Positions 2-6,931 of a stretch of 64,000 bases of DNA are shown piece by piece; the stretch's first letter is position 1, and each line of letters begins with the position of its first letter. The notes under the pieces are model-generated. The model did not search any database, was not told where the DNA came from, and saw only the letters and a program-made list of their open reading frames with translations. The translations under genes and the position numbers were made by a program. Source of the stretch: Micromonospora sp. WMMD882 (GTDB lineage: Bacteria; Actinomycetota; Actinomycetes; Mycobacteriales; Micromonosporaceae); the NCBI RefSeq assembly GCF_027497255.1, contig NZ_CP114903.1, positions 3,286,001 to 3,350,000 on the forward strand, given 5' to 3'.

Positions 2-667
2 GCCCGGATCGACCCGGGCGACTGCACGGTTCGGGTCGACCCGGCGCGTGGCCGGCTGTTGCTGCACAGCAGCGCGCTGCCGGGAAGACCGCTGGTCCCG
101 GTCCCCCAGAACGCCACGCTGACGCAGTTGGCGCCACCGTTCTTCCGGTGGCTGCGCAGACTTGGCCCGGCGACGGGCAGCACGCTGGCGTTCTGGGACC
201 AGGTCGACGGCGACGTCGCGGCGGGCTCCCGCGGTGTCCGCCACTATCCACGGCTGGTCCTCGGTCGGCTGGTGCTCGCCCGCCGGACGTGGAAGGTGCC
301 GCCGACTGCGCTGCCCGCGGGCGCCGACGACGCCGCCAGGACGGTGGGGTGGCACCGGTGGTGCGCCGGGACCGGGGTGCCCCGACAGTTCTTCGTCCGG
401 GCGGTCACCCTCCCCGAGCCGTGGGACGTCGTCCGGGGGCGGGCCTCCGACGAGTGGGTGGGGCAGGCTCGCTCGCGGTCCGGCAGCGCCGTCCGCAAGC
501 CCGTGTACGTGGATCTCTCCCAGCCGAGGTGCTGGCCGGAGGGGACCGCCGGCGCGTTGACCCTCACCGAGCCGTTGCCCGACCCGGCGGCGCTGGCCCT
601 CCGGACGCACGCGGCGGAGTACGTGATCGAAACGTCCCAACCCCCTCGGCGGAGGAGCAGGGTATGA
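2..667 (+). CDS. LanB-type lantibiotic/thiopeptide dehydratase, C-terminal fragment (5' end outside window)
   Basis: The reading frame is open from base 2, so this is the last ~221 residues of a gene that starts left of the window. It resembles the C-terminal part of the large LanB domain, which glutamylates Ser/Thr of a precursor peptide using glutamyl-tRNA. Visible landmarks are RLVLARRTWKVP (about residues 85-96 of the visible part), a GVPRQFFVRA segment, and KPVYVDLSQP near the end, which matches the KPLYxDxxSP landmark of the family. The fragment ends soon after that motif with no C-terminal elimination domain, as expected for the split dehydratases of thiopeptide systems. The stop overlaps the next start by ATGA, implying translational coupling with the YcaO gene. 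The family call is fairly confident; the role as thiopeptide dehydratase is inferred from the neighbours. Confidence 0.75.
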   Translation, partial: ARIDPGDCTVRVDPARGRLLLHSSALPGRPLVPVPQNATLTQLAPPFFRWLRRLGPATGSTLAFWDQVDGDVAAGSRGVRHYPRLVLGRLVLARRTWKVPPTALPAGADDAARTVGWHRWCAGTGVPRQFFVRAVTLPEPWDVVRGRASDEWVGQARSRSGSAVRKPVYVDLSQPRCWPEGTAGALTLTEPLPDPAALALRTHAAEYVIETSQPPRRRSRV

Positions 668-1884
668 GTGAATCGTCCATCCTCGACGCGACACCGGCCA
701 CCGCGGGCCGGAACGTGAAGCGGTACTTCGCCGGCACGCACCGCACCCGGCATCCGGCGGAGACGTGGCAGCTCGCCGAGCGGCTCTTCGCGCGCTGCGG
801 TCTGACCCGCGTCGCGGACGTCACCGGCCTCGACGTGCTCGGCATCCCGGTGTGGGTCGCCGTCCGGCCGATGGCCCGCACGCTGAGCGTCAGCCAGGGC
901 AAGGGCGCCACGGACGTGGCCGCGAAGGTCTCGGCGTCGATGGAGGCCATCGAGCTGTGGTACGCCGAGGAGCTTCCGGCGACGCCGCCGGGGCCGGTGG
1001 GCGTGCCCGCCTCGGCCCTGCGCCTGCCGTACGACGTCATGTCCCTGCAGCGCGCCGCCCGGAGCCTGCTGACGGCGGACACGCCGCTGGACTGGGTGCC
1101 GGCCCGGGTGGCCGGCACGGAGCGGGACACGCTGGTGCCGCGCGCCAGCGTGGCCATCTCCTCGCTCGCCGCGCCGGTCTGGTCGGTGCCGCTGCTGCGG
1201 GTCTCCAGCAACGGCCTGGCCAGCGGGAACTGCCCGGCGGAGGCGGCCCTGCACGGGTTGTTCGAGCTCATCGAGCGGGACTGTACGTTCGACCTCGGGG
1301 ACCGGCCGGTGTCCACCCGGACCCACATCGCCCCCGAGACGGTGACGGACCCCGGCTGCCGCCGCCTGATCGAGCAGATCACGTCCGCCGGGGCCTGGCT
1401 GGAACTCGTCGACAACACCCGCGACCCCGCGTTCCCCTGCTTCGTCGCCTACCTCTGGTCGCCCGAGGATCCGTCGATCTACTCGGGGTCCGGCTGCCAC
1501 ACCGACCCCGCGACGGCCCTCTCACGTGCCGTGACCGAGGCCGCGCAGAGCAGGTTGACGGTCATCAACGGCACCCGGGACGACGTCCGGGGCGCCCTCT
1601 ACCGCTCCCACCGCTGGGACGCCCGACGGCCGGTCACCCCACCCGGCGGGATCCGCTCGTGGCGCCAGACCCTGGCCGCTTTGCGGACCCGGCGTTTCGA
1701 CTCCGTCGACGAGGAGTACCGGTGGTGCCTGCGGCAGGTCGGCCGGCGGACCGGCCGACCCGTGCTGGAGGTGCGGTTGTCCACGGACGACGAGCCGCTG
1801 TCGGTGATCCGGGTGATCGCTCCCGGGCTGCGCTTCGGCACCGGCGACGAATGCCCGCGGCCCGTTCGACCGGAGGAGTCCTGA
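664..1884 (+). CDS. YcaO-domain protein, probable thioamide-forming (TfuA-partnered)
   Basis: A 406-residue YcaO enzyme. YcaO proteins use ATP to activate backbone amides; with a TfuA partner the known outcome is thioamide formation, otherwise azoline formation. Conserved YcaO landmarks are visible: SVSQGKGATDV followed by SASMEAIELW (about residues 75-99), FELIERD (about 198-206) and ALSRAVTEAAQSR (about 283-296). The C-terminus lacks the PxPxP tail common in azoline cyclodehydratases, and no docking (ocin-ThiF or E1-like) domain is fused. The start at 664 is chosen because GGAGGAG lies 7-13 bases upstream and it overlaps the dehydratase stop; the open frame further upstream (from 148) is a shadow of the dehydratase gene. 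The TfuA gene follows 5 bases after the stop. The assignment to thioamidation rests on that pairing. Confidence 0.85.
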   Translation: MSESSILDATPATAGRNVKRYFAGTHRTRHPAETWQLAERLFARCGLTRVADVTGLDVLGIPVWVAVRPMARTLSVSQGKGATDVAAKVSASMEAIELWYAEELPATPPGPVGVPASALRLPYDVMSLQRAARSLLTADTPLDWVPARVAGTERDTLVPRASVAISSLAAPVWSVPLLRVSSNGLASGNCPAEAALHGLFELIERDCTFDLGDRPVSTRTHIAPETVTDPGCRRLIEQITSAGAWLELVDNTRDPAFPCFVAYLWSPEDPSIYSGSGCHTDPATALSRAVTEAAQSRLTVINGTRDDVRGALYRSHRWDARRPVTPPGGIRSWRQTLAALRTRRFDSVDEEYRWCLRQVGRRTGRPVLEVRLSTDDEPLSVIRVIAPGLRFGTGDECPRPVRPEES

Positions 1885-1889
1885 TCACG

Positions 1890-5276: not shown

Positions 5277-6092
5277 ATGACCCGGGCCCGGTTCTGGAAG
5301 TTCGACGGCACGCAGGCGACGATCTCGGTGCGGACGTGGGACCACGAGGATCCGCGTTACGTGGCCATCGTGGCGCACGGCTATCCGGAGCACGCCGGCC
5401 GCTACGGCGAGGTCGCCGACCGGCTCGTCGCGCACGGTGCCGCGGTGTACGCCCCCGACCATCTGGGTTTCGGGCTCTCCGAGGGTGAGCGGGCGTGTGT
5501 CAAGGACCTTGAGGACATCGTCACGGACGTCCGGACCGTGGCCGGGCGGGCGCTCGCCGAGCACCCCGGAAAGCCGCAGATCGTCATCGGCCACTCGGTG
5601 GGTGGCCTGATCGCCACCCGGTACGCCCAGCGTTTCCCGGACGCCCTGGCGGCTCTCGTGCTCGTGGCGCCGGTGCTCGGCACCTGGCAGACCGCGACGA
5701 TGCTGCTCTCGTTCGACGAGCTCCCGACGCAGGCGTACGACATCGGGCCGATGCTGTCCCGGGACAACCAGGTGGGTGAGGACTTCAACGACGACCTGCT
5801 GGTGTGGCACGGGCCGTTCCTTCGGGCGACGCTGGAGGCCATCGCCCGGGCGTTGACGACGGCCAACGACGCGGGCGACCTCGGCGCGCTGCCGACGCTG
5901 TGGTTGCACGGTGACGCGGACAGCCTGACCCGCCTGGAGGACACCCGGACGGGCATCGAGCTGATCGGCGGCGAGGAACTGCACCAGCGGCGCTACCGCG
6001 GGGCCTACCACGACCTGTTCCACGAGACGAACCGGGAGCAGGTCTTTCGCGACGTGACCGGCTTCATCGACCAGGCCGTTCCCCGGGGCTGA
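5277..6092 (+). CDS. Alpha/beta hydrolase (monoacylglycerol-lipase-like), cluster tailoring enzyme
   Basis: A 271-residue alpha/beta hydrolase of the serine aminopeptidase S33/monoglyceride-lipase type. It shows the oxyanion segment HGYPEHAGRY, the nucleophile elbow IGHSVGG (Ser about 107), an acidic residue in HGDADSL and the catalytic His in GAYHDLFHE (about 244). AAGGAGG at 5265-5271 is well placed for the ATG at 5277. No signal peptide is present, so it should act in the cytoplasm. In thiostrepton biosynthesis alpha/beta hydrolases process the peptide (ester hydrolysis, leader removal, ring opening of an epoxide during macrocyclisation). Which of these applies here cannot be told from sequence. 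It is the last gene of the rightward operon and converges on the resistance gene. Confidence 0.8.
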   Translation: MTRARFWKFDGTQATISVRTWDHEDPRYVAIVAHGYPEHAGRYGEVADRLVAHGAAVYAPDHLGFGLSEGERACVKDLEDIVTDVRTVAGRALAEHPGKPQIVIGHSVGGLIATRYAQRFPDALAALVLVAPVLGTWQTATMLLSFDELPTQAYDIGPMLSRDNQVGEDFNDDLLVWHGPFLRATLEAIARALTTANDAGDLGALPTLWLHGDADSLTRLEDTRTGIELIGGEELHQRRYRGAYHDLFHETNREQVFRDVTGFIDQAVPRG

Positions 6093-6103
6093 CGGATCGG
6101 GCG

Positions 6104-6931
6104 CTACCGCACGCCACTTCGACCGTCGGGAAGATTCCAGTGGATCCGCTCGTAGAGCGCGATCCCGGCGGAAACCGAGACGTTCAGCGATTCGGCCGAA
6201 GGGTTGAGGGGAATCCGCACCGACCCGGCGGCGACGTCCTCCAGACCGCGTGACGCGCCGACCTTCTCACTGCCGAACATCAGCGCGAGCCGCTCGTCGA
6301 CGGTATTGAGGTAGTCGACACCGGTCGCGCCGTCGGCGCCGAACGACACCAGGGGCATGTCGTTGTCCCGGAAATACCGGACGGCCTGCTCGCGCGACGC
6401 GAGGACCACCGGCAGCGAGAAGACGTAGCCACGGCTCGCCCTGACCAGGCGACGATCCGCGATGCCGGCGAGATCGCTCTCCACCAGGACGATACCGGCG
6501 GCGCCGAGGCCGAAGGACGTCCGCACGATGGCGCCGATGTTGCCGACGATCTTCACCCCGTCGAGGACCACCAGGTCACCGGTCAGCCGGTCCAGGTCAC
6601 GGAAATCGCACGGCCGCGGAACCCGGGCGATACCGAACACCTTCGGTCGTTTCTCCGCCGCCGCCTTGAAGATCTGGTTGACGATCGACGGCTCGATCAG
6701 ACGGATCGTGATTCCGCGCTTCCCGCATTCTTCCAGAAGATCAGTCGGCAACGGACTGCCCTCGATGCCGTACACCTCGATGAATTCCAGCCCCGAACGA
6801 ATGCACTGCACCAGCGGCTCCGGGTCTTCGATCAACGCCGTACGCACGACCGACCTTGAATTCTTGGCCACGTCGACAATTCGCTGAACGGCGGGATCGG
6901 ACCGCTCGGAAATGACATCAAGGTCAGTCAT
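6104..6931 (-). CDS. tsnR: TsnR-type 23S rRNA 2'-O-methyltransferase (thiostrepton-class resistance)
   Basis: A 275-residue SPOUT methyltransferase closely resembling thiostrepton-resistance methyltransferase. It starts [18 protein letters not shown], keeps FIEVYG in the N-terminal L30e-like RNA-binding domain, then [10 protein letters not shown] (the conserved catalytic Arg region), MFGSEKVG and [16 protein letters not shown] at the C-terminal SAM-binding trefoil knot. TsnR methylates the ribose of A1067 (E. coli numbering) of 23S rRNA and so blocks thiopeptide binding at the L11 site. It is convergent with the biosynthetic genes and 11 bases from the hydrolase stop. Local GC is lower than in its neighbours, especially in its first 200 bases and promoter. 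It is the strongest single clue to the chemistry of the adjoining cluster. Confidence 0.93.

Follow-up and report, generated by a model that had tools for sequence, protein, structure and literature searches.

What peptide is made at the left end of the 64,000-nucleotide stretch of Micromonospora sp. WMMD882 presented above (the window; C1:3286001-3350000 of genome G000, a single 6.37 Mb contig), where a YcaO gene and a TfuA gene lie between a LanB-like dehydratase gene and a TsnR-type resistance gene? The original prediction took positions 2-6931 to be the right edge of a thioamide-containing thiopeptide cluster. We examined two stretches of upstream DNA, reaching up to 36 kb left of the window, and found that the interval is indeed the right edge only, since the cluster begins ~26.5 kb left of the window. 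From its gene content, gene order, sequence relatives and core sequence, which are read directly from the DNA, we infer the reactions and the product: the locus is very probably a complete cluster for a thiostrepton-class, quinaldic acid-bearing, thioamidated piperidine thiopeptide of the thiopeptin/Sch 18640 type. The window carries the following genes of this cluster.

Window 2-667, plus strand: C-terminal part of a LanB-like protein (LanB2); Pfam Lant_dehydr_N 6.9e-11 on this part.
Window 664-1884, plus strand: YcaO, 406 aa; Pfam YcaO 8.8e-61, C-terminus without PxPxP.
Window 1890-3380, plus strand: TfuA, 496 aa; PF07812 9.2e-41.
Window 3388-5226, plus strand: AsnB-like amidotransferase; Asn_synthase 2.1e-89, GATase_7 1e-43, N-terminal MCG retained.
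Window 5277-6092, plus strand: alpha/beta hydrolase; Hydrolase_4 3.6e-50.
Window 6104-6931, minus strand: NshR/TsnR 23S rRNA methyltransferase; NF000477 435.5 bits (cut-off 425).

The tight run of LanB, YcaO, TfuA, AsnB and hydrolase converging on TsnR was borne out for all six genes in place and order. LanB2 and YcaO overlap by 4 bases, gaps of 5, 7 and 50 bases precede TfuA, AsnB and the hydrolase, and the hydrolase and TsnR genes are convergent and 11 bases apart. Pfam recognised all six genes and NCBIfam five, the exception being the LanB part. The same run, TsnR apart, occurs in Micromonospora arborensis NRRL 8041 at 87% DNA identity, and the arrangement is therefore beyond chance. Left of the window the cluster consists of two divergent operons, a minus-strand arm running outward from the precursor gene and a plus-strand arm running into the window genes (L009 denotes the upstream locus).

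L009:5010-5192, minus strand: precursor, 61 aa; NF033401 63.6 bits (cut-off 37.5), TIGR03892 50.7 bits (cut-off 25).
L009:1277-4849, minus strand: NosK-like alpha/beta hydrolase and LanB-like part (LanB1) in one 1191-aa frame; NosK-like domain against PDB NosK 9.5e-27.
L009:276-1364, minus strand: TbtD-like homologue of [4+2] pyridine synthases; PDB TbtD 2.8e-11.
Minus-strand arm: Lant_dehydr_C protein (elimination partner of LanB), 366 aa.
Minus-strand arm: SagB azoline dehydrogenase; TIGR03605 83.1 bits (cut-off 78.4).
Minus-strand arm: F-protein F1; TIGR03693 45.6 bits (below the cut-off of 561.9).
Minus-strand arm: TsrM/TsrT-type tryptophan 2-C-methyltransferase; TIGR04428 1007.8 bits (cut-off 500).
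Minus-strand arm, after the TsrM-like gene: short-chain dehydrogenase/reductase (SDR), then aminotransferase.
Minus-strand arm, after the aminotransferase: PNPOx protein; PNPOx_N (PF01243) 35.8 bits (cut-off 28.1).
Plus-strand arm, start: DUF2867 protein, LCM-type methyltransferase, acyl-CoA-dehydrogenase-like protein and SnoaL, in that order.
Plus-strand arm, after SnoaL: F-protein F2; TIGR03882 20.7 bits (below the cut-off of 36.9).
Plus-strand arm, after F2: cyclodehydratase-type YcaO, ending PHPFP; TIGR03604 266.3 bits (cut-off 219.25).
Plus-strand arm, after the cyclodehydratase YcaO: first P450; 21.9 bits (just under the Pfam cut-off of 22.8).
Plus-strand arm, before the window YcaO: AMP-forming ligase, second P450 and LanB2, in that order.
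L009:16130-18667 (genome C1:3284130-3286667), plus strand: whole LanB2 gene, 845 aa, beginning upstream of the window.

These genes supply what the original prediction had asked for upstream. A precursor with a Ser/Thr/Cys-rich core is present and scores above both model cut-offs; the Lant_dehydr_C protein is the second dehydratase half, the TbtD homologue stands for the [4+2] pyridine synthase, SagB for the azoline dehydrogenase, and the YcaO ending PHPFP for the second, cyclodehydratase YcaO. Two proteins matched Lant_dehydr_C, one with 147.5 bits and the other with 28.7 bits over a scanned portion of 274 aa (cut-off 24.4), and TIGR03891 was matched in the upstream genes with 65.9 bits (cut-off 48.45). 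Residues 837-1184 of LanB1 were 34.8% identical to the LanB2 of M. arborensis, while residues 1-215 of the WMMD882 LanB2 matched a goadsporin biosynthetic protein (PDB 9jhq) at 4.3e-5. The ratio of nonsynonymous to synonymous substitution rates (dN/dS) relative to M. arborensis, computed for 20 of the 23 genes (PNPOx, SagB and LanB2 lay outside the set), ranged from 0.15 to 0.43.

The precursor reads MSISAQTQVELGVEELTGLDIDTLEISDYLDESMLDTHDLTETL-VASSSCTTCICTCSCSS (leader-core), with a boundary that we assume by analogy with thiostrepton, and its core, VASSSCTTCICTCSCSS, starts VASSS. All 23 precursor homologues listed end in SCTTCICTCSCSS, the variation lying in the first four core residues. 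TSSSS starts four of these cores; IASAS, VASAS, VSSAS and AASSS three each; ISSAS two; and ASSSS, ASSAS, AISAS and ASSFS one each. VASSS was found in WMMD882 alone, its residues 1-5 being unseen in the other 22, and since each entry stands for a 90%-identity cluster and that of WMMD882 for six member sequences, a near relative may share it. IASAS is carried by Streptomyces laurentii, M. arborensis and S. azureus, and one of the VSSAS carriers is S. sioyaensis, which we take to be the siomycin producer. We had considered VASSS as the siomycin core and rejected this, as VSSAS is what the precursor of S. sioyaensis (P0021) carries. The thiostrepton and siomycin clusters resemble that of WMMD882 in core residues 5-17, which are identical, and in a TsrM-type methyltransferase, but differ at the start of the core (IASAS in S. 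azureus and S. laurentii, VSSAS in S. sioyaensis). The predicted product would differ from the named ones chiefly in being a Val1/Ser4 congener. Newness had been said to depend on the precursor, and it held at the congener level only, through the VASSS core. The core letters had no match in literature text, cores often sitting in figures or supplements. Orthologues of F2 and TfuA occur in Micromonospora sp. WMMD956, and the main text of PMC12387530, which concerns that strain, has none of four thiopeptide or RiPP (ribosomally synthesized and post-translationally modified peptide) terms. With this locus the small group of thioamidated thiopeptide clusters gains a complete member from a single-contig genome; the WMMD882 core allows a specific mass prediction and offers a natural test of the core positions tolerated by the thioamidation and ring-forming enzymes.

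We compared 27 WMMD882 proteins gene by gene with four relatives using tblastn. The original prediction had drawn a comparison with the Micromonospora member of the Sch 18640 type, and M. arborensis NRRL 8041, presumably the producer of Sch 18640, was indeed the closest named relative: 25 of the 27 proteins matched, 24 of them at 77-92% and TsnR at 62%, and the vWA and DJ-1 neighbours, which lie outside the cluster, had no match there. The two clusters share these 24 genes, the precursor among them, and are alike in having two divergent operons, two F-proteins, and AsnB (86% identical) and hydrolase (91%) genes adjoining TfuA, but M. arborensis has an IASAS core and its own TsnR, 62-63% identical, at the opposite end. 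The precursors were 90.7% identical over residues 1-54. At the DNA level the match spans 3259493-3292097 (~32.6 kb) in two pieces of 87.1% and 87.4% identity, and, TsnR apart, no further match of at least 400 bases was found between WMMD882 3210001-3350000 and the M. arborensis contig from 60001 to 150000.

In S. tateyamensis ATCC 21389, Amycolatopsis saalfeldensis DSM 44993 and Streptomyces sp. RPT161, all genes from PNPOx to TfuA were matched; the best match of the aminotransferase was at 34-37% identity, so its orthology is unsure. The thiopeptin cluster of S. tateyamensis shares the precursor, hydrolase-LanB, TbtD-like, Lant_dehydr_C, SagB, F-protein, two YcaO, two P450, ligase, LanB2, PNPOx, TfuA, TsrM-like and SDR genes; it differs in its VASAS core, its precursor gene, which shares a strand with the main genes, a single F-protein, a TsnR on another contig and the lack of an AsnB or hydrolase match in 48 kb. 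The saalfelduracin cluster of A. saalfeldensis has the same gene set, with the YcaO at 72% identity, and differs from WMMD882 in its ASSSS core and likewise in the single F-protein, the TsnR on another contig and no AsnB or hydrolase match in 48 kb. Excerpts of PMC8498797 and PMC13185837 report thiopeptin from S. tateyamensis and saalfelduracin B from A. saalfeldensis, respectively. LanB2 was 82% identical to its counterpart in M. arborensis, 51% in S. tateyamensis, and 53% in both A. saalfeldensis and RPT161. The single long NosK-like/LanB1 frame also occurs in M. arborensis, S. tateyamensis and A. saalfeldensis, and is not present in RPT161.

The window YcaO is probably the thioamidating enzyme, and the YcaO-TfuA pair predicts a thioamide in the product. 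An excerpt of PMC8120280 gives three thiopeptides as having TfuA-YcaO thioamides (saalfelduracin, thiopeptin and Sch 18640), and one of PMC13185837 describes a Ser-Lys pair in TfuA that frees sulfide from ThiS-COSH. The best PDB match of the YcaO was the archaeal MJ1094 (6pe3, 1.4e-25), with the glutamate-rich YcaO motifs aligned, and TfuA residues 5-212 matched 6xp8 (1.1e-34), with SMGALRA and DxKRxDA in common. The YcaO was 90% identical to that of M. arborensis, 72% to A. saalfeldensis, 71% to RPT161 and 70% to S. tateyamensis; TfuA was 79% identical to that of M. arborensis and 58% to those of A. saalfeldensis and S. tateyamensis. Scanning the named genomes with the YcaO gave six loci, four strong and two remote (39% and 36%), in a scan that uses short patterns and may miss near relatives of WMMD882. 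Within the genus, 41 of 160 genomes (WMMD882 included) had a YcaO match at E<=1e-20; at least 90% identity was seen in two of the 41, WMMD882 and M. arborensis (G011, the same locus as G003), and the other 39 were at most 45% identical. A TfuA search returned 12 representatives of 90%-identity clusters, WMMD882 included, followed by a large drop in score. The TfuA domain occupies the first 212 residues. We considered the C-terminal half as a special feature and rejected it, as it is common in long actinobacterial TfuA proteins: the best 120 of 575 relatives are 430-496 aa long but for three, in a search that by design admits only 0.55-1.75 times the query length and excludes short TfuA proteins.

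The alternative that survives best is a thiostrepton- or siomycin-type main product with normal amides, the YcaO-TfuA pair being inefficient or inactive. Another Micromonospora genome, G104, shows that the scaffold genes, LanB2 and a TpnL-like PNPOx among them, can occur in a thiostrepton-type cluster (core TSSSS) without the pair, as no YcaO-TfuA, AsnB or hydrolase match (E<=1e-8) was found in 60 kb. Against inactivity, both frames are open and under purifying selection (dN/dS 0.254 for YcaO and 0.423 for TfuA), their motifs are common to the solved archaeal proteins, and the same YcaO retrieves the named thioamide producers; we therefore consider this alternative improbable. G104, with LanB2 and PNPOx but no YcaO-TfuA match (E<=1e-8) in those 60 kb, also led us to reject LanB2 as a thioamidation-specific enzyme. 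That the window genes belong to two unrelated neighbours, one a thiopeptide cluster and the other a YcaO-TfuA cluster for a different type of RiPP, is very unlikely indeed: other such pairs are common in the genus (the 39 genomes at <=45% identity) and TfuA and two other short peptides stood beside the YcaO in four of eight such loci inspected, but here the YcaO gene overlaps LanB2, and LanB2, YcaO and TfuA are grouped in each of the four relatives' thiopeptide clusters (YcaO 70-90%), with PNPOx lying between LanB2 and YcaO in S. tateyamensis, A. saalfeldensis and RPT161; no search aimed at a second precursor was made. In the four loci with short peptides, where the YcaO is ~42% identical, one peptide ends in the Cys-rich SCACCCPCCCT and one in NNVNI.AVLIL; these loci may form a separate thioamide-RiPP family whose leader would be nitrile-hydratase-like.

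Several observations weigh against a thioamidated, piperidine-containing and amidated thiopeptide. The window YcaO scored 159.3 bits with TIGR03266, the model for McrA-glycine thioamidation (cut-off 365), and TfuA 181.6 bits with NF033432 (cut-off 235.2). Neither the hydrolase-LanB1 frame nor LanB2 matched a LanB family at full length; for LanB2 this held in Pfam at E<=1 and in NCBIfam at E<=0.1. The TbtD/PbtD model NF045556, the F-protein models and the first P450 were matched only below their cut-offs, and the fit of PNPOx to TpnL is based on PF01243 and conserved linkage. AsnB and the hydrolase had no match at 1e-3 in S. tateyamensis (48 kb), A. saalfeldensis (48 kb) and RPT161 (43.4 kb, on a contig that stops ~4 kb past the last matched gene), and since three of the four relatives lack a match, amidation is predicted for the two Micromonospora clusters only.

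For the thiopeptin/Sch 18640-type product that we favour, the following pathway is proposed. The 61-aa precursor would be bound by the F-proteins, its Cys residues converted to azoles by the cyclodehydratase YcaO and SagB, and its Ser and Thr residues dehydrated by LanB with its elimination partner. A [4+2] cycloaddition by the TbtD-like enzyme would form the six-membered ring at the centre, and a TpnL-like enzyme with F420H2 would reduce that ring to a piperidine. Tryptophan, 2-methylated by the TsrM/TsrT-like enzyme, would be rebuilt to quinaldic acid and attached, aided by the NosK-like hydrolase domain, as the second macrocycle. YcaO and TfuA (window 664-3380) would turn one backbone C=O into C=S. 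The C-terminal amide would be formed by AsnB together with the LCM-type methyltransferase and the hydrolase at 5277-6092, and TsnR would methylate 23S rRNA, shielding the producer.

To our knowledge, neither thioamidation nor TpnL is part of the thiostrepton and siomycin pathways. Each of the four relatives, S. tateyamensis included, has a counterpart of the PNPOx protein (51-77% identity), which fits TpnL as a candidate. An excerpt of PMC8498797 describes TpnL as the F420H2-dependent dehydropiperidine reductase of thiopeptin and lists it for Micromonospora also. The TsrM/TsrT-like enzyme suggests a quinaldic acid-bearing, thiostrepton-type product. Matches to it were found in 5 of 354 family genomes and 16 of 394 class genomes, WMMD882 counted in each. 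We examined seven of these regions (three found in the family search and, of the 15 other genomes that the class search gave, four), and G104 alone had thiopeptide genes beside the TsrM-like gene. As the homologues in the other six (62-68% identical) stand without other thiopeptide genes, 2-methyltryptophan may feed other pathways; two of these regions (G208, G232) have TsrM with two weak acyl-CoA dehydrogenase matches, one (G550) has TsrM with a weak SDR match, and three (G460, G574, G482) have TsrM alone. The C-terminal amide of thiostrepton arises by methylation, de-esterification and amidation, a route reportedly set out by Liao and Liu in 2011. By analogy, the LCM-type methyltransferase, the hydrolase and AsnB fit C-terminal amidation in WMMD882, AsnB probably carrying out the amidation and the hydrolase possibly the de-esterification ahead of it.

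F1 and F2 are 38% identical to each other, and two F-proteins were seen in two of the six thiopeptide clusters compared, those of WMMD882 and M. arborensis; both queries matched the same single gene in S. tateyamensis, A. saalfeldensis and RPT161. A search with F2, capped at 8000 candidates, gave at least four proteins. With dN/dS of 0.415 for F1 and 0.362 for F2, both look maintained. In a tree of 10 F-proteins, F1 and F2 were parted by long branches, and a one-clade test gave p-AU 0.139; the G104 sequence entered this tree as its longest open frame, uncorrected and probably with a wrong end. A bolder version of the product is doubtful, namely a thiopeptin with dehydroalanine (Dha) at position 4 (Val-Ala-Dha-Dha-...) and with leader recognition split between two F-proteins of old divergence, each belonging to its own operon of the divergent pair; one would serve to form azoles and the other would act later, for example in thioamidation or with LanB2. 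With two F-proteins to compare, the cluster could show which enzyme is served by each of these leader-binding proteins.

TsnR is probably the self-resistance gene and marks the right edge of the cluster. It matched PDB 3nk6 (2.6e-96) and 3gyq (1.6e-95), scored 353.3 bits with the nosiheptide model NF000035 (below the cut-off of 500), and was 71% identical to the TsnR of RPT161, 67% to that of S. tateyamensis and 63% to those of M. arborensis and A. saalfeldensis. Being nearest to RPT161, with a different TsnR at the other end in M. arborensis, it indicates that the history of the resistance gene is not that of the biosynthetic block in WMMD882 and M. arborensis. Its G+C content is 64.5%, as against 73.6% for 3273655-3292092; since M. 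arborensis and RPT161 have TsnR genes of much the same G+C content (64.3% and 66.2%), the low value is no sign of recent arrival. Beyond the cluster lies one further feature.

Window 8457-8532, minus strand: tRNA-Ala (GGC), found by ARAGORN; outside the cluster.

Synteny with two relatives (G157 and G146) resumes at this tRNA gene. The distance to it from the left flank (3224212) is 12-13 kb in these two and 70 kb in WMMD882, which places the cluster in a variable segment ending at tRNA-Ala; the other two of the four relatives (G018 and G092) had no left-flank match inside the 20 kb examined. The 70 kb segment covers genome C1:3224212-3294458, and the vWA gene, a left neighbour of the cluster, was present in one of 26 genomes, that of WMMD882.

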